A DNA stretch of 64,000 bases from Candidatus Sulfotelmatobacter sp. (GTDB lineage: Bacteria > Vulcanimicrobiota > Vulcanimicrobiia > Vulcanimicrobiales > Vulcanimicrobiaceae), in the NCBI GenBank assembly GCA_035504415.1, contig DATJRY010000005.1:1-64000 (forward strand), read 5' to 3'. Each line of letters starts with the position of its first letter. Within the stretch, counting starts at the first letter, position 1. Below are positions 3,927 through 43,479 of this stretch, piece by piece. The translations under genes were made by a program, and so were the position numbers. The notes below the pieces were generated by a model that was given only the letters and a program-made list of their open reading frames with translations, had not been told where the DNA came from and made no database searches.

Positions 3927-4910
3927 CTAGCGCGCGGTCGGCCGCGCGCCCAGGCGATGGATCGATTCGATAAAGCGGACCGTCCCGCTCGAGTGCACGA
4001 CGATCGAATGCGTGCGCGCCTGGTTGCCGTAGAAACGCACGCCGTGCACGAGATCGCCGTCGGTGATGCCGGTCGCCGTAAAGACGACATTGTCGCTCTT
4101 GACGAGATCGTCGATCGAGAGCACGCGATCGAGATCGCCGAAACCCATCGCCTTCGCCCGCTCGGCCTCGGCTTCGTTGCGCGGCTGCAGGCGGCCCATG
4201 AAGTTGCCGCCCAAACATTTGATCGCCGCCGCCGCCAGCACGCCCTCGGGCGCTCCGCCGGTGCCCATCGCGACGTGGATGCCGGTCGCCTCGATGGCGG
4301 TCGCGATGCAGGCGTCGACGTCGCCGTCCGAGATCAGCTTGATCCGCGCCCCCGCGTCGCGCACCTCGCGAATCAGCTCGGCGTGCCGCGGCCGGTCCAA
4401 GATGACGACGCAGACGTCGTTGATCGGCTTCTCGAGGGCGTTGGCCACGGCCTCGAGGTTCTCGCGCACCGGCGCGTCGATATGCACGTAGGGCGCGGCT
4501 TTGGGCCCGACCGCCAACTTCTTCATATAAGAGTCGGGCGCGTGCAAGAGGCCCCCTCGCTCCGAGATCGCCATCACCGCGATCGAGTTGGGCAGGCCGT
4601 TGGCGACGAGATTCGTCCCCTCGACCGGATCGACCGCGATGTCGACCTCGATCCCGCCTTGGCCGACCTCCTCGCCGATGTAGAGCATCGGCGCCTCGTC
4701 GCGCTCGCCCTCGCCGATGACGATCCGGCCGGAAATCTCCATCTCGCCCAGCCACTCGCGCATTTTCTCGACCGCAGCGCCGTCGGCCGCGTCGCGTTCC
4801 CCGCGGCCCATCCAGCGGGAGGCCGCCAGCGCCGCATGCTCGGTCACCTTCACGAAGTCGAGGGAATGGACCGGATGCGCGAACGTGCTGCGAGCCGTAG
4901 AGCGTACCAT
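3927..4910 (-). CDS. glpX: Fructose-1,6-bisphosphatase class II
   Basis: 327 residues, normal for GlpX. Conserved segments include [20 protein letters not shown] and the metal-binding DPVEGTN, then [23 protein letters not shown]-type sequence split across residues 195-217, and [12 protein letters not shown]. The enzyme hydrolyses fructose-1,6-bisphosphate (often also sedoheptulose-1,7-bisphosphate) in gluconeogenesis and the Calvin cycle. This is notable because a phosphoribulokinase gene lies 11 kb away. It leads the minus-strand operon with the flavoprotein and NAD synthetase genes, and faces the mannosyltransferase gene across a 55-base divergent region. Confidence 0.93.
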
Positions 4911-14808: not shown

Positions 14809-15420
14809 TCAGCCGCGCAGCACGCGCGCCGCACGCAGCAGCGCCAGCGCCGTCACGGTGTCGTCGAGACGACCGTCGGCGCAGGCAGCGAGCGCATCGT
14901 CGAACGGCATGCGCACGATGGCGATCTGTTCAACCGCTTCCGGCGGCAGCGGCGCCGCCGTGAGCTCGCGCGCGAGAAACAGCGCGACGGGATCCTGCAC
15001 GAGCGAGGGAATCTCGTAGGCCTCGCCGAGGACGTCCCAGCGCGCGGCGACGACGCCCGCCTCTTCGCGCACCTCGCGCACCGCACACGCCTGCGCGTCC
15101 TCGCCGGGGTGGCGGCCGCCTTTGATCACCTCGAGCACCTCGCGGTCGAGTGCGAAGCGCGCCTGTCGCGCCAGCAGCACGTCGGTGCCGTCGAGCACCA
15201 CCACCGCGCACGCCGGCGGCGTGATGATGAGCCCGTGCTCGCCCGGCACGCCGGTCGGATGGACGATCGCGTGCGCTTCGAAGCGCACCCACGGATTTTC
15301 GTAGACCACGCGGTGCGCGGTGCGCCGGTAGCCGGTCGAATGGTTCACGACCGGCGTCTTCTTCGCGGTGCCATGTTCTTCGTTGTCGGCTCGAGCCGCG
15401 CGCTTGGCAACATTGCGCAC
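14809..15420 (-). CDS. NUDIX hydrolase, ADP-ribose pyrophosphatase-like
   Basis: About 203 residues from GTG 15420. The Nudix box GGRHPGEDAQACAVREVREE continues AG, fitting GX5EX7REUXEEXGU exactly. The preceding beta strands (ENPWVRFEAHAIVHPTG, ACAVVVLDGTDVLLARQARF) and the segment after the box resemble ADP-ribose/NDP-sugar pyrophosphatases. The N-terminal 30 residues are basic and may not be translated; GTG at about residue 26 is an alternative start. It is divergent from the STAS gene. Confidence 0.85.
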   Translation of the reverse strand: MRNVAKRAARADNEEHGTAKKTPVVNHSTGYRRTAHRVVYENPWVRFEAHAIVHPTGVPGEHGLIITPPACAVVVLDGTDVLLARQARFALDREVLEVIKGGRHPGEDAQACAVREVREEAGVVAARWDVLGEAYEIPSLVQDPVALFLARELTAAPLPPEAVEQIAIVRMPFDDALAACADGRLDDTVTALALLRAARVLRG

Positions 15421-15866: not shown

Positions 15867-16790
15867 CTACGCGGCGATCGCGTCGGCCAGCTCGTCCAGC
15901 ACCAGACAGATTCGGCGCGCGATCAACAGCTGCGCGAGCGCCAACGGGTGCGAGATGCGCTCGCGCGCGCCGTCGCTGAACCGGCCGACGCCGTCGACGT
16001 CCAAGCCGGCATGGCGCCACCCGAGATGGCCGACGATCTCGGCGCGGACGGCCCGCGCCGTCTCGTCGTCGATGTCGCCGTCGAGCTCGATGACGGTGGT
16101 CGGATAGGATCCTTCACCCTCGCTGGTCTGCCGCAGATGCGTCGAACGGCTGGCGAAGTGCGCGTAGTCGAGCGGACGAAAGCGCGGGCCCTTGACGATC
16201 TGCGCGTCGAGCCGCGCGTTGTCGACCTCGGGCGCGCAGCGCGAGAAGCGCACGCGCAGGTCCGCGTGCGCTTGCTGCGGACTGATGTGGGCGTCGATGT
16301 CCGCTTGGCGGCGGGCGATCTCGGCGCGCACGCCCGGTTCGGTGTAGCCGCGCTGCGCGAGGTCACGTTGGATCTTCCACGCGATCTTGAGCTCGAGCTG
16401 CGGATCGAGCCAGACCGAGACGTCGAACAACGAACGCAGGGTGCGCGTGTAGAGCGGGAAGAGTCCGTGCACGATCACGATCGGTTTGGCCTCCAACCGC
16501 TCGCGCGCCCCGAAGGTCCCGTCGCGATGGTCGTAGACCGGTTTCTCGATCGTCTGCCCGTGGGCGATCCGCCACAGATCTTCTTCCATCGTCGCGAAGT
16601 CGTTGGCGCGCGGGTTGAGCGCGGTCAAGCCGACGGCCGCCCGCTGGGCGCGATCGAGGCTGTGGTAGTCGTCCAAGCAGACCTCGGCGATCCGCTCGGG
16701 GCCGAAGATCGCGTGCAAGCCCGCGCAGAGCGTCGTCTTGCCGGTGCCGGAATCGCCGCCGACGGCGACCATGATCGGTCGGTGCATCAC
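15867..16790 (-). CDS. Phosphoribulokinase-family protein, Walker B Glu replaced by His
   Basis: 307 residues from GTG 16790. The phosphoribulokinase hallmarks are present: P-loop GGDSGTGKTT (residues 11-20), CLDDYHSLDRAQRAAVGLTA, NPRANDF, KPVYDHRDGTF and IAWKIQRDLAQRG. The usual VIEGLHPL reads VIVHGLFPL here, so the Walker B glutamate is His108 and the following His is Phe. The family phosphorylates ribulose-5-phosphate for RuBisCO; whether this copy does so is open. The GTG start is supported because the related 114-residue gene at 19470-19814 has the same start and the same upstream motifs at identical distances. No RuBisCO gene is in the window. Confidence 0.82.
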   Translation of the reverse strand: MMHRPIMVAVGGDSGTGKTTLCAGLHAIFGPERIAEVCLDDYHSLDRAQRAAVGLTALNPRANDFATMEEDLWRIAHGQTIEKPVYDHRDGTFGARERLEAKPIVIVHGLFPLYTRTLRSLFDVSVWLDPQLELKIAWKIQRDLAQRGYTEPGVRAEIARRQADIDAHISPQQAHADLRVRFSRCAPEVDNARLDAQIVKGPRFRPLDYAHFASRSTHLRQTSEGEGSYPTTVIELDGDIDDETARAVRAEIVGHLGWRHAGLDVDGVGRFSDGARERISHPLALAQLLIARRICLVLDELADAIAA

Positions 16791-16883: not shown

Positions 16884-18401
16884 CTAGGCGTACTCCTCGA
16901 GGCCGGCCGGCTCGACGACGGCTTCGATCTGCTCGGGGTTCGACTTCCAGAACCCGTAGCTGAAAAAGAACACCAGCCCGACGACCAGCGCCAGCACGAA
17001 CCAGATCCAGGTCGTGCGCGAGAGCCCGAAGATCGCCAGGAACAGCGAGAACACGATTCCCAGGATCGGGAAGAGCGGGACGAACGGGACGCGGAACGCG
17101 CGCGGAATGTCGGGCTTGCGCGCGCGCAAGTAGAGCACGCCCGCGCACACGACCGTGAACGCGATCAGCGTGCCGATGTTGACCAGGTTGAGCAGCTCGT
17201 TGAGCGGGACGATCAGCGCCAGGATCGCGACCGCGATCCCGGTCAGCGCGGTCGTCGCGACCGGCGTCTTGAAGCGCGGGCTGACGTGCGCGACCGCCGG
17301 CGGCAGCATCTTGTCACGCGCCATCACGTAGAAGATGCGCGACTGTCCCAGCAGCGAGGCCAAGGCGACGCTGGTCGTGCCGGCGAGCACGCCGATCGTG
17401 ATCACCCAGGTCAGGATCGGGAGGTGCAGCGGCGCCAGCGCGTAGACCAGCGGGTCCTTGGCGGGGACGTGCGTCCACGGCACCGCGCCGACCAGCACGA
17501 TCGCGGTCGCGCAGTAGATCACCGTCCCGATCGCGAGCGCGCCGATCACGCCCAGCGGCACGTCGACTTGCGGGTTCTTGCATTCCTCGGCCGTCGTCGT
17601 CGCGGTGTCGAAGCCGATGTAGCTGAAGAACACGAACGCGGCGATCGGGATGATGCCGTACGGCTGTGAAGACTCGACCGCCCCGCCGAACGGCACCAGC
17701 GCGCCCCAACCCTTGGGGTTGAATTGGGCGAGGTTGGCGCCGTGGAACAGGAAGAAGCCGGCGATGATGAAGACGATCAGCGCGGAGATCTTCAGCACGA
17801 CGAAGACGTTGTTCGCGCTGGCGGACTCGCGAATCCCGATCGCCAGCAGCGCGCTGAGCGCGAGCACGAACGCCGCGCCGACCACGTCGCACTGCGAGTG
17901 GGCCAGGTCGTAGCTGCCGGGCAGCCACCACGGCCCGTTGATGACCAAGTTCGACTGCTGCGCCCAGGTCGGCAGCACCATGCCGATCCCCTTGCCCAGG
18001 TCCTGCACCGCGGCCGAGAACTGCTGCGCGACCGGCGCCGCGCTGATGCCGTACTCGAAGATCAGCGCGAAACCGATGATCCAGGCGAACAGCTTGCCCA
18101 TCGTGGCGTACGCGTAGGTGTAGGCGCTGCCGGCCACCGGGACCATCGCACCGAGCTCCGCGTAGCACAGCGCGGCGAAGAACGAGGTCAGTCCGGCGAT
18201 CAGATACGAGATGATCACCGAGGGGCCGGCGCCCTTGACGCCGGTCCCGATGGTGGTGAAGATGCCGCCGCCGATCATCGTGCCGAGCCCGATCGAGACC
18301 AGGTCCTTGGCCGTCAGCGCGCGCCGGAGCGTCTTGCTCTTGCTCTGCTCGCGCAGCTTCTCGACGGAACTGGTAGCAAACAGGCGGGAGGCAAACGACA
18401 T
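16884..18401 (-). CDS. APC-superfamily cationic amino acid permease
   Basis: 505 residues with about 12 membrane helices. The start LVSIGLGTMIGGGIFTTIGT is the conserved helix 1 of APC transporters, and FFSYIGFDTATTTAEECKNP carries the loop motif typical of the CAT/YfnA-like cationic amino acid group. ATG 18401 begins MSFASRLFATSSVEKLREQS, as in that family. It lies 40 bases after the pseudo-aldolase gene and upstream of the phosphoribulokinase on the same strand. Substrate is not determined by sequence. Confidence 0.9.
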   Translation of the reverse strand: MSFASRLFATSSVEKLREQSKSKTLRRALTAKDLVSIGLGTMIGGGIFTTIGTGVKGAGPSVIISYLIAGLTSFFAALCYAELGAMVPVAGSAYTYAYATMGKLFAWIIGFALIFEYGISAAPVAQQFSAAVQDLGKGIGMVLPTWAQQSNLVINGPWWLPGSYDLAHSQCDVVGAAFVLALSALLAIGIRESASANNVFVVLKISALIVFIIAGFFLFHGANLAQFNPKGWGALVPFGGAVESSQPYGIIPIAAFVFFSYIGFDTATTTAEECKNPQVDVPLGVIGALAIGTVIYCATAIVLVGAVPWTHVPAKDPLVYALAPLHLPILTWVITIGVLAGTTSVALASLLGQSRIFYVMARDKMLPPAVAHVSPRFKTPVATTALTGIAVAILALIVPLNELLNLVNIGTLIAFTVVCAGVLYLRARKPDIPRAFRVPFVPLFPILGIVFSLFLAIFGLSRTTWIWFVLALVVGLVFFFSYGFWKSNPEQIEAVVEPAGLEEYA

Positions 18402-18441: not shown

Positions 18442-19473
18442 TCAGGCTGCGAGTGGGAACGCGAGCGTCCGCGGGTCCTCGAGCTTCGCGCTGTACGCGC
18501 CGCACGCGGCAGCATTGGCGCAGTAGGCGCGGTGCAGCAGCAGCCGGCGCGCGTCGGCGACGCGCTCCTCGCGCCCGCGCCACGTCTCGAGCGCGGCGGT
18601 GCGCAGCGCGGCACCGTACGAGAACGTGAGCGGCCAGGGGCGCCGCCGCGGCATCGCGCGATTGAGCGCGCACAGCCGCTGCGCCGCCAGCGCCGGCGGT
18701 TGTCCGTCGATCAGAAACGCGATCCCCGCCACCGCGACCGGGACCGTCGCTCCGAGCACGCGCAGCGTCTCCGCCACGACCTCGGTGACGTCGTCGTTGG
18801 CCGGGGCGGACCGTCCGGCGGCCACCATGGTCGGTGCCAGCAGCAGCCCGTCGAACGCGACGCGTGCCGCGGCCAGCTCCGCAATCGTGCGGCGCAGGAC
18901 GCGCTCGGCCGACGCCGCCGCGACGGTGACGTCGTGATCGCCCTCGTCGCGCAGCTCGAGCTCCAGCACCGGGACGAGCCCGTTCTCTTGCGCCAGCGCG
19001 GCGCAGCGCGCCAAGGCGTGCGCGTTGGCCGCGACGGCCTCGTCGGACGGTTCGGCGCGAAACACGGCGCGCCAGGTTCCGAAGCCCGCGCCGAGCAGCG
19101 CGTACTCGGTCAGCCGGCGGCGCAGCCCGTCGAGCCCTTCGGTGACCGGCTCGCCGAGCGTCCCCGGCAACGGCGCGGCGCCGGCGTCGAGCGCGACGCC
19201 CGGCACGATCCCCCGCGCGCGCAGCGCCGCGACGACGCTGCCACGCGCGCCGGTGCTGCGGATCGACTCGTCCGAGAGGATCGCGCCGCCGGCGAAGCGC
19301 TCCCAGCCGGGCGCCTCGAGGGCGACCTCACGCCAGGCGCGCCGCACCTCCGCCGTGTCGGGCAGCTCGAGTGCCGCGAAACGGCGGCTGCGCGCCGGTT
19401 CGTCCAGCGCGACCACGCCGCGCCCGCCCGCGACCAGCGCGGCGGCCAACGCCGCGACGCGATCGGCCCTCAT
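18442..19473 (-). CDS. Class I fructose-bisphosphate aldolase-fold protein lacking catalytic lysines (pseudoenzyme)
   Basis: 343 residues that align end to end with class I aldolase: RGVVALDEPARSRRF (Asp24 = Asp33), LPGTLGEPVTEGLDGLRRR, ANAHALARCAALAQENGLVP, EGDHDVTVAAASAERVLRRT, LTFSYGAAL. The Schiff-base lysine site LLKPNMV reads LLAPTMV (Ala213); the FAKWR lysine is Thr133 (FGTWR); both lysines of KVDKG are lost (ALDAG, Ala97); the SYGRAL arginine is Ala288; and the phosphate-loop FLSGG reads FLIDG. The acidic pair ELE (171-173) remains. It should not cleave fructose-bisphosphate by the known mechanism. ATG 19473 overlaps the upstream pseudo-phosphoribulokinase stop (ATGA). The open frame and conserved core argue for a functional protein rather than a decaying gene. 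Confidence 0.85.
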   Translation of the reverse strand: MRADRVAALAAALVAGGRGVVALDEPARSRRFAALELPDTAEVRRAWREVALEAPGWERFAGGAILSDESIRSTGARGSVVAALRARGIVPGVALDAGAAPLPGTLGEPVTEGLDGLRRRLTEYALLGAGFGTWRAVFRAEPSDEAVAANAHALARCAALAQENGLVPVLELELRDEGDHDVTVAAASAERVLRRTIAELAAARVAFDGLLLAPTMVAAGRSAPANDDVTEVVAETLRVLGATVPVAVAGIAFLIDGQPPALAAQRLCALNRAMPRRRPWPLTFSYGAALRTAALETWRGREERVADARRLLLHRAYCANAAACGAYSAKLEDPRTLAFPLAA

Positions 19474-19814
19474 GCCGCCGCTCCCGCCCGCGCGCCCAGC
19501 GCGCGAGCGCGGTCCGCGACGAAGCGCACCGCGTCGCGCGCGCCGACCACGGTGCCGTCGCGCGCGACGATCCACACGCCGCCGTCGTACCGCACCCGCA
19601 GGTCGGCCAGGCGCGCTTCCGGGGCGACGCCCTCACCCTCGAGCCAGACGGTCAGATCGAAGGCGGCGCGGAGCGTCCGCGAGACGACGCTCCCCGAGCC
19701 GCGCACCACGCGCGCGTGGACGCCGCGCAGCTCGGCACCCAGGTCGGCGGCGAACGCGTGGATCTGCTCGGAGACGTCGCCGGCGACGGCGATCAAGATC
19801 GGTCGTGTAGGCAC
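19470..19814 (-). CDS. 114-residue phosphoribulokinase-derived protein without P-loop
   Basis: GTG start, 114 residues. Its first strand PTRPILIAVAGD aligns with MHRPIMVAVGGD of the neighbouring phosphoribulokinase, but the following residues are VSEQIH instead of SGTGKTT. The central part VVSRTLRAAFDLTVWLEGEG aligns with LYTRTLRSLFDVSVWLDPQ. The stretch between these blocks, including the substrate and lid region, is missing. The last 40 residues form two short strands and a helix. I infer a shrunken paralogue that cannot bind ATP through a Walker motif. It is translationally coupled to the pseudo-aldolase. Confidence 0.7.
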   Translation of the reverse strand: MPTRPILIAVAGDVSEQIHAFAADLGAELRGVHARVVRGSGSVVSRTLRAAFDLTVWLEGEGVAPEARLADLRVRYDGGVWIVARDGTVVGARDAVRFVADRARALGARAGAAA

Positions 19815-20034: not shown

Positions 20035-20697
20035 ATGGGAGCAGTGCAGCTCTTCGATCAGCTCTTCGGCAAGCGCGACTCGCTCTGGTTCGAAAACGGG
20101 GCTGCCGGCGCACGCCAAGGGAAGTTCCAAGCCATGGCCATCAGCGGCGGCCGTTCGGTCACCGTCATGGGCATGGCCCTGGCCCGCGAAGGGCTGGCGT
20201 TCGTCTCGCCGGTGCTCTTGGGCGAGCCCGAGCTGCAGATGACCTTGGCCGTCCGGGCCCGCCGGATCGCCACCCGCGTCCGCGTCGACCGGACCGAACC
20301 GATGAAGTCGCCCGACCGCATCGTGCACCGCTACTTCTGCAGCTTCATGGCGATCGCGGCCGACGATTGGGATGCGGTGGTCCGCTACGTCGAGAACAAG
20401 CCGGAACCGAAGACCGTCGAGTTCGCTCCGACCATCGACGACGATTTCCGCTCGCTGCCGATGTCGGTCCAGAACGACATCGTGCGCTACCTGGTGCGCC
20501 AAGGACGACTGCAGCCGCCGGGTCAGGGCCAAGCGCCGCTGATCCGCGTCGAGACCAGCGCCCCGCGCGACCTCGGCAACGGCCGCGTCGCGCGCGACGT
20601 GCTGATCCACAGCCGCATCACCAAGCACCAAGAGACGCACTCGTTCGACACGCGGTTCCGCGTCTTCTCGACCAACCAAGTCCAAGCGCTCGACTGA
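20035..20697 (+). CDS. Hypothetical protein, possibly PilZ-like
   Basis: 220 residues from ATG 20035 (MGAVQLFDQLFGKRDS); a TTG at 20011 would add eight. The region from about residue 30 to 125 is beta-rich, with GMALAREGLAFVSP where PilZ domains have their DxSxxG turn, then strands ending in VHRYFCSFMAIAADDWDAVV, which resembles a PilZ ending. The N-terminal RxxxR arginines of c-di-GMP binders are not obvious, so binding is doubtful. The C-terminal 60 residues form another beta-rich piece. It is divergent from the pseudo-phosphoribulokinase gene and convergent with the LytTR regulator. Confidence 0.5.
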   Translation: MGAVQLFDQLFGKRDSLWFENGAAGARQGKFQAMAISGGRSVTVMGMALAREGLAFVSPVLLGEPELQMTLAVRARRIATRVRVDRTEPMKSPDRIVHRYFCSFMAIAADDWDAVVRYVENKPEPKTVEFAPTIDDDFRSLPMSVQNDIVRYLVRQGRLQPPGQGQAPLIRVETSAPRDLGNGRVARDVLIHSRITKHQETHSFDTRFRVFSTNQVQALD

Positions 20698-20703
20698 CGA
20701 TCC

Positions 20704-21423
20704 CTAGAGGCCGAGTGCCCTTCTGACCGCCGGGAGGTATCCGCGCGAGACGGGGACCTCGCTGCGCTGCTTGTCGTCGACGCGCAGCAGGTACGTGCCG
20801 CCGAAATAGGGCTCCACCTCGGTCACCCGCTCGGGGTTGACCAGGTAGGCGCGATGCACGCGCAGGAACCCGGCCGGCTCGAGCCGCCCGGCCGCGTCGG
20901 CCAGCGCGCCTTTCCAGCGCAGCTCGCCGTCGAACAAGCGCGCGGTCACGACGTGACCGTTGGCCTGCACGTAGCGGATCTCGGCGATCTTCACGAGGCG
21001 CGTGCGCTCGCCGTCCTCGAGCGCGACGCGCGAGAGCGGCTTGCCCGCGTCGCGCGCCACCGCGCCGCGCGAGGCGCGCAGCCGCTCGATGGTGCGCGCC
21101 AAACGTTCCTGCGAGACCGGCTTGACGACGTAGTCGGCCGCCGCCAACTCGAACGCGTCGACCGCGTGCGTATCGTGCGCGGTGACGAACACGACCTGCG
21201 GCGCGGCCGGCATCGCGTTGATGACCTTCGTCGCCTCCAAGCCGCTGAGCCCCGGCAAGTTGATGTCCAGGAAGACGACGTCGTACGGCTGGGCGGCCAA
21301 CGCCGCCAGCGCTTCGACGGCGTCGCCGGCCTCGGCGATCTCGACGTCGTCGGCGACCGTGCCGAGCACGTAGACCAGCTCGCTGCGCACCAGCGGTTCG
21401 TCGTCGACGATCAGCGCGCGCAT
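20704..21423 (-). CDS. LytTR-family response regulator
   Basis: 239 residues. The receiver domain (1-120) begins MRALIVDDEPLVRSELVYVL with phospho-acceptor Asp in VVFLDINLPGLSGLEA, the Thr switch in VVFVTAHD and Lys in YVVKPVS. The LytTR DNA-binding domain (about 140-239) has IRYVQANGHVVTARLFDG and FLRVHRAYLVNPERVTEVEP. It pairs with the LytS-type kinase just upstream, whose stop overlaps this ATG (TGATG). Family members bind imperfect direct repeats upstream of cell-surface or metabolic genes; its targets are unknown here. Confidence 0.93.
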   Translation of the reverse strand: MRALIVDDEPLVRSELVYVLGTVADDVEIAEAGDAVEALAALAAQPYDVVFLDINLPGLSGLEATKVINAMPAAPQVVFVTAHDTHAVDAFELAAADYVVKPVSQERLARTIERLRASRGAVARDAGKPLSRVALEDGERTRLVKIAEIRYVQANGHVVTARLFDGELRWKGALADAAGRLEPAGFLRVHRAYLVNPERVTEVEPYFGGTYLLRVDDKQRSEVPVSRGYLPAVRRALGL

Positions 21424-22490
21424 CAGCGCGCCGCTGCCGGCATCGACGCGGGCACGTAGAAGCGCACCGTCGTCCCCGCGCCCGGCCGGCTCGTCACCCG
21501 CAGCCCGCTGGCCGGACCGAACAGCTTGGTCAGGCGCTGGTTGACGTTGTCCATCCCGATGCCGTTGCCGCTCGGAACCGCCGTGCCGGGCGAGAAGCCG
21601 ACGCCGTCGTCGCTGACGGTGATCTCCGTCCCCTCGCCTGCCGGACGCGCCCCGATGCGCACCGTGCCGCGGCCGCCCTTGGGCGCCAGGCCGTGTCCGA
21701 TCGCGTTCTCGACCAGCGGCTGCACCGAGAGCACCGGTACGGGCGCGACGCGCGCGCGCGGATCGACCTCGAACGCGACGTGCAGTCCGGCGAAGCGCGC
21801 GTGCTCGAAGCGCAGGTACTGCTCGACGTGCTCGAGCTCCTCGTCGAGCGAGACGAACTCGCTGTGCGGCGCGAGCGAGTCGCGGAAGTACTCGGCGAAG
21901 TCGACCACGAGGTCGTGCGCGCGAACGGGATCGGTGCGGGTCAACGACGCGATCGTCGTCAGCGTGTTGAACAAGAAATGCGGCGAGACGCGCGCGCGCA
22001 GCGCGTCGAGCTCGGCCTTGGTGACCAGCGCCTCGCGCGCGTCGAGCTCCGCCGCTTCGAGCGAGACCGAGAACACGCGCGCCAAACCGATCGCGACCCG
22101 TTCGTCGTCGGCCTCGATCGGCGTGCCGGCGCGGTACAGCTTGAGCGCGCCGACGACGGTCCCGCGCACGACGAACGGCGCGATCGTCACCGACGTGAGC
22201 GGACAGGTCGCCTCCGGACACCCGATCTCCTCGCGCGCCCGTGCGGTGATGACCTCGCCGGTTGAAAGCGCGCGGTGGGTCAAGCCCGTCAACGAAGGGC
22301 CACCGACCAGATGATGGTCCTCGCCGCGTCCGACGTACGCCAACACGTGCTCGACGTCGACGACGGCGCACGCGTCCAGGCTCAAGTTCTCGTAGAGCAA
22401 GCGCGCGGTGAACCCGGCGGACTCCGGGCCCAGGCCGCCGCGCAGGTGCGGGATCGCTTCGACCACCAGGTCCAGGACGTTATGGCTCAT
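21423..22490 (-). CDS. LytS/YehU-type cytoplasmic sensor histidine kinase
   Basis: 355 residues. A GAF-like sensor (about 10-160, containing CPEATCPLTSVTIAPFVVRG with two cysteines) precedes the His_kinase domain with SPHFLFNTLTTIASL (phospho-His) and an HATPase domain with VQPLVENAIGHGL, SDDGVGF and GNGIGMDNVNQRL. There are no membrane segments, so it senses a cytoplasmic signal, unlike classical LytS. ATG 22490 is only 18 bases from the divergent comB start. It is coupled to its LytTR regulator. Confidence 0.92.
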   Translation of the reverse strand: MSHNVLDLVVEAIPHLRGGLGPESAGFTARLLYENLSLDACAVVDVEHVLAYVGRGEDHHLVGGPSLTGLTHRALSTGEVITARAREEIGCPEATCPLTSVTIAPFVVRGTVVGALKLYRAGTPIEADDERVAIGLARVFSVSLEAAELDAREALVTKAELDALRARVSPHFLFNTLTTIASLTRTDPVRAHDLVVDFAEYFRDSLAPHSEFVSLDEELEHVEQYLRFEHARFAGLHVAFEVDPRARVAPVPVLSVQPLVENAIGHGLAPKGGRGTVRIGARPAGEGTEITVSDDGVGFSPGTAVPSGNGIGMDNVNQRLTKLFGPASGLRVTSRPGAGTTVRFYVPASMPAAAR

Positions 22491-22508
22491 GAGGCGCAGT
22501 AGCGCCGG

Positions 22509-40721: not shown

Positions 40722-42098
40722 GTGCAGCTCGATATCCCGGCGCAGCTCGCAGCCGCGCGTGCCTGCGCCGAAAACGGACGACGCGCCGACGCCATCGCCG
40801 CCTATGCGCGCCTCCTGCGCGATGCACCGGGGACGCTCGACGCGATGCTGCCGCTGGCCGGGTTGTTCGTCGCCGAGCGGAACCTGGCGTTTGCGCGCTC
40901 GGTGCTCCTCGAGGCCGCTTCGCTCCACTCCGAGCGCGCCGACGTGTGGGCGCTGCTCGCCAACGTCCTGGTCGACCTCGACGAACCGGCGGCCGCGCGA
41001 ACTGCCTACGAGCGCGCGCTGCAGGTCGATCCCGACCTGACGGTCGCGCACCTTGGCCTCGCGGTGCTTGGTGAGCGTGCCGGCGACGCGGAGGCGGCAC
41101 GCCCCCATTGGCAGCGCGGCTATGCGCGCGGCGTCACCGCGGGCCCGAACTGGCATGCCCCGGGCGTGACGCGCATCCTGTTGGTCAGCTCGGCGGTCGG
41201 CGGCAACGTCCCGCTGCTGCCGATCCTCGACGATCGGCGCTTCGTGCGCGCCGAGATCTTCGCCGAGGGCTACACGCCTGCGATTCCGCTGCCGCACGAC
41301 GCGCTGATCGTCAACGCGATCGGCGACGCCGAGCGGAGCGGGCGCGCGCTGGACGCCGCGGACCGCATCATCGCCGATCTGGCCGGCCACGTCGTGAACG
41401 CGCCCGGCCGCGTGCGCGCCACGACCCGCGTCGCCAACGCCGCGCGGCTGGCCACGATCGACGGAGTCGTCGCTCCGCGCGTGCGCGCGTTCGCGCACCA
41501 GCAGCTCACGGGCCCCGGCGGCGCCGAGCTGCTCGCAGCCGCGGGCTTCGCGTTCCCGTTGCTGTTGCGTGCGCCCGGCTTCCACACCGGGATGTACTTC
41601 GTGCAGGTCGAGAACGCCGACGCACTGGCCGGCGCGGCCGCGCAACTGCCGGGGCCCACGCTGCTGGCGATGGAGTTCGTCGACACCGCGGCAGCCGACG
41701 GTACCTACCGCAAGTACCGCGTGCTCGGGATCGACGGCGCGCTCTACCCGCTGCACCTGGCCGTTTCACGCAGCTGGAAGGTCCACTACTTCAGCGCGGC
41801 CATGGGCGAGAGCGAGCACTATCGCGAGGAAGAACGCGCGTTCCTCGACGCGCCGCGCGCGGCGATTGGTGCCGGCGCGTACGCCGCGCTCGAACGCGTC
41901 GTCGACGCGCTTGGGCTGGATTACGGCGGCGTCGACTTCGGCCTCGACGCCACCGGCCGCCTCGTGGTCTTCGAAGCCAACGCGACGATGCTCATCGCGC
42001 CGATCGACGCCGACCCGCGCTTCGCGTACCGGCGTCACGCCTTCGCCGCCGCGACCGAGGCGGCACGGGCCATGCTCGTGGCACGCCGACCCGCCTAG
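40722..42098 (+). CDS. TPR-ATP-grasp fusion protein
   Basis: 458 residues from GTG 40722. Residues 1-140 form about three TPR units (GRRADAIAAYARLLRDAPGT, DEPAAARTAYERALQVDPDL). The C-terminal 300 residues look like an ATP-grasp ligase: LLAMEFVDTAAADGTYRKYR for the ATP-binding strand, and YGGVDFGLDATGRLVVFEAN, whose Asp-Glu-Asn triad fits the metal site. A peptide or amine ligation to a glycan is possible. It opens the glycan locus and converges with a sulfotransferase gene (4-base overlap). Confidence 0.72.
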   Translation: MQLDIPAQLAAARACAENGRRADAIAAYARLLRDAPGTLDAMLPLAGLFVAERNLAFARSVLLEAASLHSERADVWALLANVLVDLDEPAAARTAYERALQVDPDLTVAHLGLAVLGERAGDAEAARPHWQRGYARGVTAGPNWHAPGVTRILLVSSAVGGNVPLLPILDDRRFVRAEIFAEGYTPAIPLPHDALIVNAIGDAERSGRALDAADRIIADLAGHVVNAPGRVRATTRVANAARLATIDGVVAPRVRAFAHQQLTGPGGAELLAAAGFAFPLLLRAPGFHTGMYFVQVENADALAGAAAQLPGPTLLAMEFVDTAAADGTYRKYRVLGIDGALYPLHLAVSRSWKVHYFSAAMGESEHYREEERAFLDAPRAAIGAGAYAALERVVDALGLDYGGVDFGLDATGRLVVFEANATMLIAPIDADPRFAYRRHAFAAATEAARAMLVARRPA

Positions 42099-42787
42099 AA
42101 CTCGTAGCCGAACATCTCGATCTCGCGGGCGAATTCCCGCGCCACCAGCTCGCGTGTGTGCGGCGTGTAGTACTCGCGATAGTTGGCCCGGGGCAGCCGG
42201 TTGAGATGGGGCAACGCGATCTCGCGGCCGATCCGCCGCCCGATCTCGGCCATGTCGGCGTCGACGGTCTCGACCCGTCCCACGAAGTCGACGATCAGCT
42301 CGCCGCGCTTGTCGGTGATGAACGGCAGGTACCCCGGCTCACTCGCGAAGTACGGCCGAGCCCGAACGTAGTTCGAGAAGTCGACGTTGGTGCTGATGAA
42401 CGCGATGTCCGCAGCCGTCTTCGCCGTCTCGGGATACTGCTTGAAGATCTCGTGGAAGTACACGTACGTCGAGACGACCAGGTCCCACGGATTGCGCACG
42501 AAGGCGAACTTGAAGTAGTTCGACCAGACCTCGGCCGGAACCATCTGACGCAGGATGCGCGCCGGCAGGTGCTGCTCCATGAAATGCGAGATCTGGTTGA
42601 GCGCAAAGAATCCGCGCATGTCGCGGAACATCTCGACGCCGTTCGGGCTCTCGAAGAAGCGCGGCCACGCGTTCTGGTTGAGGAACTCCCACGCGGCGTC
42701 TTCGGTGTGCAGAGCCTGCAGCATCGAGCTGCCCGCGGTCTTCGGGATGTGAATGAAGATGAACTGGTAGCCGTGCGAGACCGGCAT
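42095..42787 (-). CDS. Sulfotransferase family 2-like protein (downstream copy)
   Basis: 230 residues. The 5'-phosphosulfate loop IFIHIPKTAGSSMLQAL and the 3'-phosphate motif FAFVRNPWDLVVSTYVYFHE identify a PAPS-dependent sulfotransferase. Its partner gene upstream is the same length and very similar throughout. Likely it sulfates a sugar of the surface glycan. ATG 42787 overlaps the stop of the upstream copy (TGATG). Confidence 0.85.
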   Translation of the reverse strand: MPVSHGYQFIFIHIPKTAGSSMLQALHTEDAAWEFLNQNAWPRFFESPNGVEMFRDMRGFFALNQISHFMEQHLPARILRQMVPAEVWSNYFKFAFVRNPWDLVVSTYVYFHEIFKQYPETAKTAADIAFISTNVDFSNYVRARPYFASEPGYLPFITDKRGELIVDFVGRVETVDADMAEIGRRIGREIALPHLNRLPRANYREYYTPHTRELVAREFAREIEMFGYEF

Positions 42788-43479
42788 CAGAAGCGGTACC
42801 CGAAGCGTTCGATCTCCGGGGCGAAGTCGGCAGCGACGATCGCGCGGGTCTCGTCGGTGTAGTACTCGCGGTACTGCGCGTGCTCGGAGCGGTTGCGGTG
42901 CTCGAGCGGGATGTTCAGGCCGACTCGGCGGCAGATCTCGGCGAGGTCCGCCTCGATGTTCTCCACCTTGCCGACGAAGTCGACCAGCAAGTTGCCGCCC
43001 TGGTCGGTGACGTGCGGGAGCAGGCCGATGCTGTTCGCCATGAATTTCCGCGCCCGCACGAAATTCGTGAAGTCGACCGACGCCATGATGTACGCAACGT
43101 CGATCGCTTCCATCGCGACGCGCGGATCCTCGCTGAAGGTCTTCTTGAGAAAGAAATAGCTCGAGACGACGAAGTCCCATGGGTTGCGCACGAAGGTGAA
43201 CTTGAAGTAGCTCGACCAGACCTCGGCCGGAACCATCTCGCGCAGCACGCGTGCCGGATAGTGCTGCTCAGGAAACAACGCCATCGGGTTGAGCGGATAA
43301 AAGACCCGAAGTTGCCGGAACAGCTCGGCGCCGCGCGGGTGCGCGAACAGCCGCGGCCAAGCGTTGCGCGCCATGAAATCCAGATTCGGCCGGACGGTCA
43401 AGAGCGACTCGACGATCGAGCTCCCCGCGGTCTTCGGGATGTGGATGAAGATGAACCGGTCGTCGTGCGAGATGGGCAC
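42787..43479 (-). CDS. Sulfotransferase family 2-like protein (upstream copy)
   Basis: 230 residues from GTG 43479. IFIHIPKTAGSSIVESLLTV and FTFVRNPWDFVVSSYFFLKK are the PAPS-binding motifs. It shares long blocks with the adjacent copy (REMVPAEVWSSYFKFTFVRN against RQMVPAEVWSNYFKFAFVRN), so the two arose by tandem duplication. Differences cluster in the central acceptor region, so the two may sulfate different positions. It follows the reductase gene by six bases. Confidence 0.85.
   Translation of the reverse strand: MPISHDDRFIFIHIPKTAGSSIVESLLTVRPNLDFMARNAWPRLFAHPRGAELFRQLRVFYPLNPMALFPEQHYPARVLREMVPAEVWSSYFKFTFVRNPWDFVVSSYFFLKKTFSEDPRVAMEAIDVAYIMASVDFTNFVRARKFMANSIGLLPHVTDQGGNLLVDFVGKVENIEADLAEICRRVGLNIPLEHRNRSEHAQYREYYTDETRAIVAADFAPEIERFGYRF

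Follow-up and report, generated by a model that had tools for sequence, protein, structure and literature searches.

The window (the whole 64,000-nt stretch analyzed here) contains a gene, fbaA* (18442-19473, minus strand), that encodes a 343-aa catalytically dead homologue of class I fructose-bisphosphate aldolase, and the question is whether such a protein is decaying or is kept, and if kept, what it does. The setting is a group of soil bacteria, within the lineage Eremiobacterota/WPS-2, now Vulcanimicrobiota, from which the key CO2-fixing enzyme has been lost; the retention of a dead aldolase there, with its conserved surface shifted to the opposite face, suggests a different, non-catalytic job. 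Dead enzymes under selection are well known in eukaryotes, but from the central carbon metabolism of bacteria there is little documentation of them. A literature search yielded no description of a pseudo-aldolase of the PF00274 family, and, as far as could be found, a maintained one in bacteria would be the first. New here are the dead clade of five genomes, the selection tests, the tie to the absence of RuBisCO, and the inversion of the conserved face.

Fold and active site of fbaA*

The translation of fbaA* has no internal stop, and its codon-based coding score per residue resembles that of its neighbours. PF00274 matches it over 325 residues (E 5.4e-80, 269 bits against a cut-off of 22.2), and solved class I aldolases align with it end to end (the best being 3mmt, about 40% identity in the structural alignment), as the initial annotation had proposed. 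The AF2 model (pLDDT 91.3) has all eight strands of the predicted (beta/alpha)8 barrel and superposes on solved aldolases with TM 0.91-0.93 and rmsd of about 1.6 A. The NCBIfam equivalog NF033379 scores 302.7 bits, that is, above its cut-off of 250, and therefore automatic pathway reconstruction would credit these genomes with an aldolase that is absent (an annotation trap).

Positions were numbered by their rabbit equivalents, mapped through aldolase C and intact relatives. According to the alignment with aldolases, the Schiff-base Lys229 is replaced by Ala213 (18835-18837, minus strand), and Lys146 by Thr133 (19075-19077, minus strand). The alignment with intact relatives shows Ala94 for Lys107 (19192-19194, minus strand), Ile255-Asp256 for Ser271-Gly272 of the phosphate-binding loop (18706-18711, minus strand), and Ala288 for Arg303 (18610-18612, minus strand); S35 has become P26. 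Retained are D33 (D24), E34 (E25), R42 (R31), R148 (R135), E187 (E171), E189 (E173), S300 (S285), and G302 (G287). The readings of the initial annotation at these sites (Ala213, Thr133, Ala288, FLSGG changed to Ile-Asp, and the persistence of Asp24 and of the acids E171/E173) were all verified in this way. It had also counted both lysines of the KVDKG motif as lost. The first loss (K107, now A94) is genuine, while the second lysine is not catalytic in PF00274 aldolases, and since intact relatives read KVDTG or LDTG, its absence is uninformative. The only lysine in the whole protein is K330 in the C-terminal tail, hence the aldolase site can support no Schiff-base chemistry. None of these active-site positions varies among 12 intact relatives.

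The four other dead orthologues come from the genomes G003, G004, G007, and G008. Position 229 is A/Q/Q/T/A across the five; S271 is lost in all of them, and K107 in all four that cover this position. For fbaA* alone, active-site columns are not lost in significant excess (10 of 17 kept, against 70 of 93 other invariant columns, P = 0.23), while in each of the other four they are lost more than other invariant columns (P = 0.006-0.034). The only pocket residue invariant in the dead clade is R148; the copy from G003 has D33 and E189 deleted, and that from G004 has Val for E187. The persistence of K146 in G008 and G004 might be taken to mean that such members are still aldolases, with K146 or a shifted lysine as the nucleophile, but K146 is Ala or Arg in two other dead copies and the window copy has its single lysine in the tail, which makes this explanation very improbable.

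Compared with class I fructose-1,6-bisphosphate aldolase (PF00274, NF033379; 3mmt, rabbit aldolase A), fbaA* thus shows whole-length homology and the barrel (TM 0.92), and it descends directly from intact copies of its own genus; unlike a functional aldolase, it lacks Lys229, Lys107, Lys146, Ser271/Gly272, and Arg303. Further differences are an inverted conserved face and, in one dead member, the loss of up to 80 loop residues.

Distribution, descent and selection

Across 11 genomes of the genus, a dead orthologue occurs in five (the window genome and the four named above, so that the gene is retained in 5/5 genomes of the subclade), an intact copy in two, and neither in the remaining four. 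No further dead copy was found among 99 genomes of the family; two lower-scoring matches, in G107 and G109, have the Schiff-base lysine. Weak PF00274 matches in other genera (L023, L110, L111) were considered as dead copies and rejected, since they look like an ordinary second type of class I aldolase with lysines present; the actinobacterial L062, considered as a relative of the dead copies, is an intact aldolase.

In the tree, the dead copies form a single clade (support 100/99, stem of 0.28 changes per site), sister to the intact aldolases of the congeners G005 and G010. A concatenated tree of neighbouring genes unites the same five genomes, with moderate support within the group. Read parsimoniously, these trees imply a single loss, after which the residues at the replaced positions drifted. 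The independent loss of active-site residues, suggested earlier, is therefore unlikely, because the dead copies share one stem branch, though the replacing residues at K229 differ. Orthologues with the lysines retained, which had been named as a way to refute repurposing, are seen only in the two congeners outside the dead clade; the five dead orthologues have no Schiff-base lysine. As intact ancestors, dead copies, and graded loop losses coexist in one genus, the transition of an enzyme to a non-enzyme can be traced stepwise.

Genome searches found neither another PF00274 aldolase nor a class II aldolase in the window genome, and there is no intact PF00274 copy in the other four dead-copy genomes. 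For this reason, fbaA* cannot be a regulatory subunit serving an intact PF00274 aldolase. The window genome encodes a DhnA-type aldolase, which can supply the housekeeping aldolase function.

In the branch codon model, omega is 0.12 in the dead clade, compared with 0.04-0.06 in intact copies, and omega = 1 for the dead clade is rejected by 156-159 lnL units. These omega values are approximate, because synonymous sites are saturated on deep branches, while the rejection of neutrality is not in doubt. For the window branch, omega is 0.13 (2dlnL of 39 against omega 1), and the two copies that have been shortened most have omega of 0.27 and 0.15 (2dlnL of 12 and 15). In the closest dead pair, G008 and G004, both with Gln at K229, a comparison of 225 codons yields omega of 0.041, and omega 1 is rejected with a likelihood ratio of 171. 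The check for dN/dS near 1, which had been named as a way to refute repurposing, thus resulted in rejection of neutrality.

All gaps in the dead copies are in frame. Nine stretches, 80 residues in total, are missing from the 262-aa copy of G003; the core strands are spared (2 core-strand residues lost, 11 expected, P = 0.035), and the AF2 model of this copy still has eight strands (pLDDT 91). For the two deletions in G007, the random-placement test was not significant (P = 0.38).

A decaying relic, drifting toward deletion after the loss of the Calvin cycle, with an open frame that is an accident of GC-rich sequence, would be consistent with several observations: the losses accompany the absence of RuBisCO, a phosphoribulokinase relic adjoins fbaA*, the replaced residues differ between copies, two copies are shrinking, and omega is two to three times as high as in intact copies. 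It is strongly disfavoured, and we consider it unlikely, given that omega = 1 is rejected on all branches tested, that omega is as low as 0.04 between two copies already sharing K229Q, that no genome of the subclade has lost the gene, that indels are in frame and mostly outside core strands, and that a new face has gained conservation (see below). The dead aldolase is kept, not decaying. With its essential catalytic residues gone and the gene maintained by selection, the classification of fbaA* as a pseudoenzyme is supported, and the suggestion of a repurposed one fits the single clade of five dead orthologues under purifying selection, with in-frame changes only and with conservation shifted to the opposite barrel face.

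Conservation of the two barrel faces

Barrel faces and loops were assigned from the AF2 model of the window protein, the alignment was derived from the same model, and the analysis rests on four divergent dead sequences. Identity of catalytic-face loops decreases from 0.64 in intact copies to 0.43 in dead ones (0.27 counting gaps), while that of opposite-face loops increases from 0.53 to 0.77. The helices, taken as the baseline, are alike in both groups (0.57 and 0.52), and the intact pair of the same genus has the normal order (0.71 for the catalytic face, 0.59 for the opposite one). The real split is the most extreme of all 6435 ways to divide the 15 loops (exact P = 1/6435).

The strongest gain is observed in the loop that precedes strand 8, on the side of the barrel facing away from the old active site (MPRRRPWP in fbaA*, 18631-18654, minus strand). 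Aligned over dead and intact copies, this (M/T)PRRRPWP loop shows 94% identity in the former and 30% in the latter, the first position being M or T and the rest invariant in all five. C268, R194-R195, and V246 are also fixed and clade-specific. Identity at four-fold sites in the conserved loops is no higher than elsewhere, hence the constraint acts on the protein; constraint at the DNA level (an RNA element or an overlapping gene) was rejected on the same grounds.

Since only R148 is invariant in the pocket and whole pocket loops are deleted in two members, the catalytic pocket is most likely no longer the functional part of the protein, and the opposite face, as assigned from the model, most likely is. 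This bears on two explanations that retain the pocket. The initial annotation had suggested a regulator or sugar-phosphate sensor, in which the old pocket would bind a sugar phosphate without catalysis and signal. The presence of D33, E187, E189, R42, and R148 in fbaA* (all five copies have R148) and the LytS/LytTR pair nearby agree with this. The phosphate sites have lost S271, G272, R303, and K107, conservation within the clade is lowest in the catalytic-face loops, most of which G003 and G007 no longer have, and the acids D33 and E189 in G003 and E187 in G004 are themselves gone, so a sensor is not supported and its probability is low. The other explanation is a new enzyme, in which the remaining acids and Arg would serve a lysine-independent reaction in a remodelled pocket. 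TIM barrels are good hosts for new activities, and fbaA* still has D24, E171, E173, and R135, but in the dead clade only R135 is invariant and the pocket face is the divergent one, so that a new activity appears improbable.

Probable former Calvin-cycle context and possible partners

In G038, the intact aldolase closes a PRK-GlpX-aldolase operon, which has a LysR gene, a LytS/LytTR pair, and RuBisCO as neighbours; G107 also has the PRK-GlpX-aldolase arrangement. Of the 99 family genomes, 17 have an intact aldolase, and form I RuBisCO is present in 10 of these; not one of the remaining 82 has it (Fisher P 1e-9). None was found in the five dead-copy genomes (drafts, 74-97% complete), G003 having only a weak, form IV-like match. 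A complete Calvin cycle is known from Vulcanimicrobium alpinum WC8-2 (PMC9758169).

The window retains several genes of this kind. Immediately upstream, overlapping the start codon of fbaA*, there is a 114-aa ORF (19470-19814, minus strand), a shrunken phosphoribulokinase relic with an open frame and no P-loop. It aligns collinearly with five phosphoribulokinases (z 5.0-8.8, none of 500 shuffles being as good), has no Pfam or NCBIfam match, and is present in the window genome only. Relics of a phosphoribulokinase or an aldolase were also looked for in front of the dead copies of G007 and G008 and in front of the G010 permease, and none was found; the gap searched there contains a divergent 2-hydroxyacid dehydrogenase. 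Downstream are an APC-family amino-acid permease (16884-18401, minus strand), 40 bp from fbaA*, an intact phosphoribulokinase with the Walker A motif GGDSGTGKTT (15867-16787, minus strand; NF005655, 270 bits, cut-off 236), and a conserved neighbour, a NUDIX hydrolase (14809-15420, minus strand). A LytTR response regulator (20704-21423, minus strand), whose counterpart pair adjoins the intact operon in G038, and its partner, a GAF/LytS-type histidine kinase (21423-22508, minus strand), lie on the other side. GlpX, a class II fructose-bisphosphatase (3927-4910, minus strand), which adjoins the aldolase in G038 and G107, is here apart from the fbaA* locus.

On balance, we favour the explanation that fbaA* is a former Calvin-cycle aldolase whose catalysis was lost once and which is kept as a folded, non-catalytic, partner-binding barrel. 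The class I fructose-bisphosphate aldolase would originally have served the Calvin cycle, and catalysis would have been lost in the ancestor of the Vulcanimicrobiota subclade that now has no form I RuBisCO, the protein being retained afterwards as a (beta/alpha)8 barrel without catalytic function. It may bind its partner through the opposite face, by the LGAG and VPVAVA segments and, above all, by the Arg-rich PRRRPW loop; an invariant loop of basic character points to docking, either on another protein or on an anionic surface. The partner would most plausibly come from the neighbourhood of the gene itself, chiefly the APC permease. The permease is the first candidate, since it starts 40-75 bp downstream of the dead copy in four of the five genomes. 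The link is suggestive only, because G007 has two reverse-strand genes between the dead copy and the permease, and other genomes have the permease with no aldolase gene beside it (G006, G009, and G010, the last with an intact aldolase elsewhere). A more specific version is possible, though tentative: the aldolase barrel would work upside down, the catalytic face being abandoned and partly deleted, and the N-terminal (stability) face with PRRRPW docking on a partner from the same locus, e.g. the permease.

Two known systems are comparable to a retained barrel of this kind. The barrel of PDX1.2 has a lysine-using (beta/alpha)8 fold. In plants, PDX1.2 is a pseudoenzyme paralogue of PLP synthase that acts as a regulator (PMC6829848); as in fbaA*, its key active-site residues are not conserved and it is non-catalytic. 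PDX1.2 is reported, in work cited by that paper, to form complexes with its catalytic homologue PDX1.3. In contrast, the window genome has no catalytic PF00274 homologue, so that the partner of fbaA* must be another protein. Form IV RuBisCO-like proteins, one of which is encoded in the same genome, resemble fbaA* as homologues of a Calvin-cycle enzyme retained after loss of the original chemistry. As far as is known, the well-studied ones are enzymes with another reaction; here, no residual active site is conserved.

RuBisCO-like proteins of form IV are found in most examined genomes of the genus (L048:1114-2232, minus strand, G000:C19; L091:8590-9693, plus strand); the models nearest to them are those of 2,3-diketo-5-methylthiopentyl-1-phosphate enolase, with scores far below the cut-offs. 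The window genome has two intact phosphoribulokinase-type genes (15867-16787, minus strand, in the window, and L090:7451-8254, minus strand) and no detectable form I RuBisCO. The solved relatives nearest to the former include the "cyanobacteria-specific" phosphoribulokinases 9qkn and 9qko.

Beside the LytTR regulator, the window encodes a 217-aa protein with no Pfam match (20044-20697, plus strand), which has counterparts of about 50% identity beside this regulator in G005 and G010. The genomes G008 and G007 have, at the same locus, a gene for a glycoside hydrolase of family 47, alpha-mannosidase type (L031:7072-8463, plus strand; L032:7185-8588, plus strand), that is absent from the window. 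To our knowledge, bacterial members of this family are rare. Elsewhere in the window, a glycan-synthesis cluster contains a tandem pair of paralogous sulfotransferase-like genes (42095-43479, minus strand; FIFIHIPKTAGSS).
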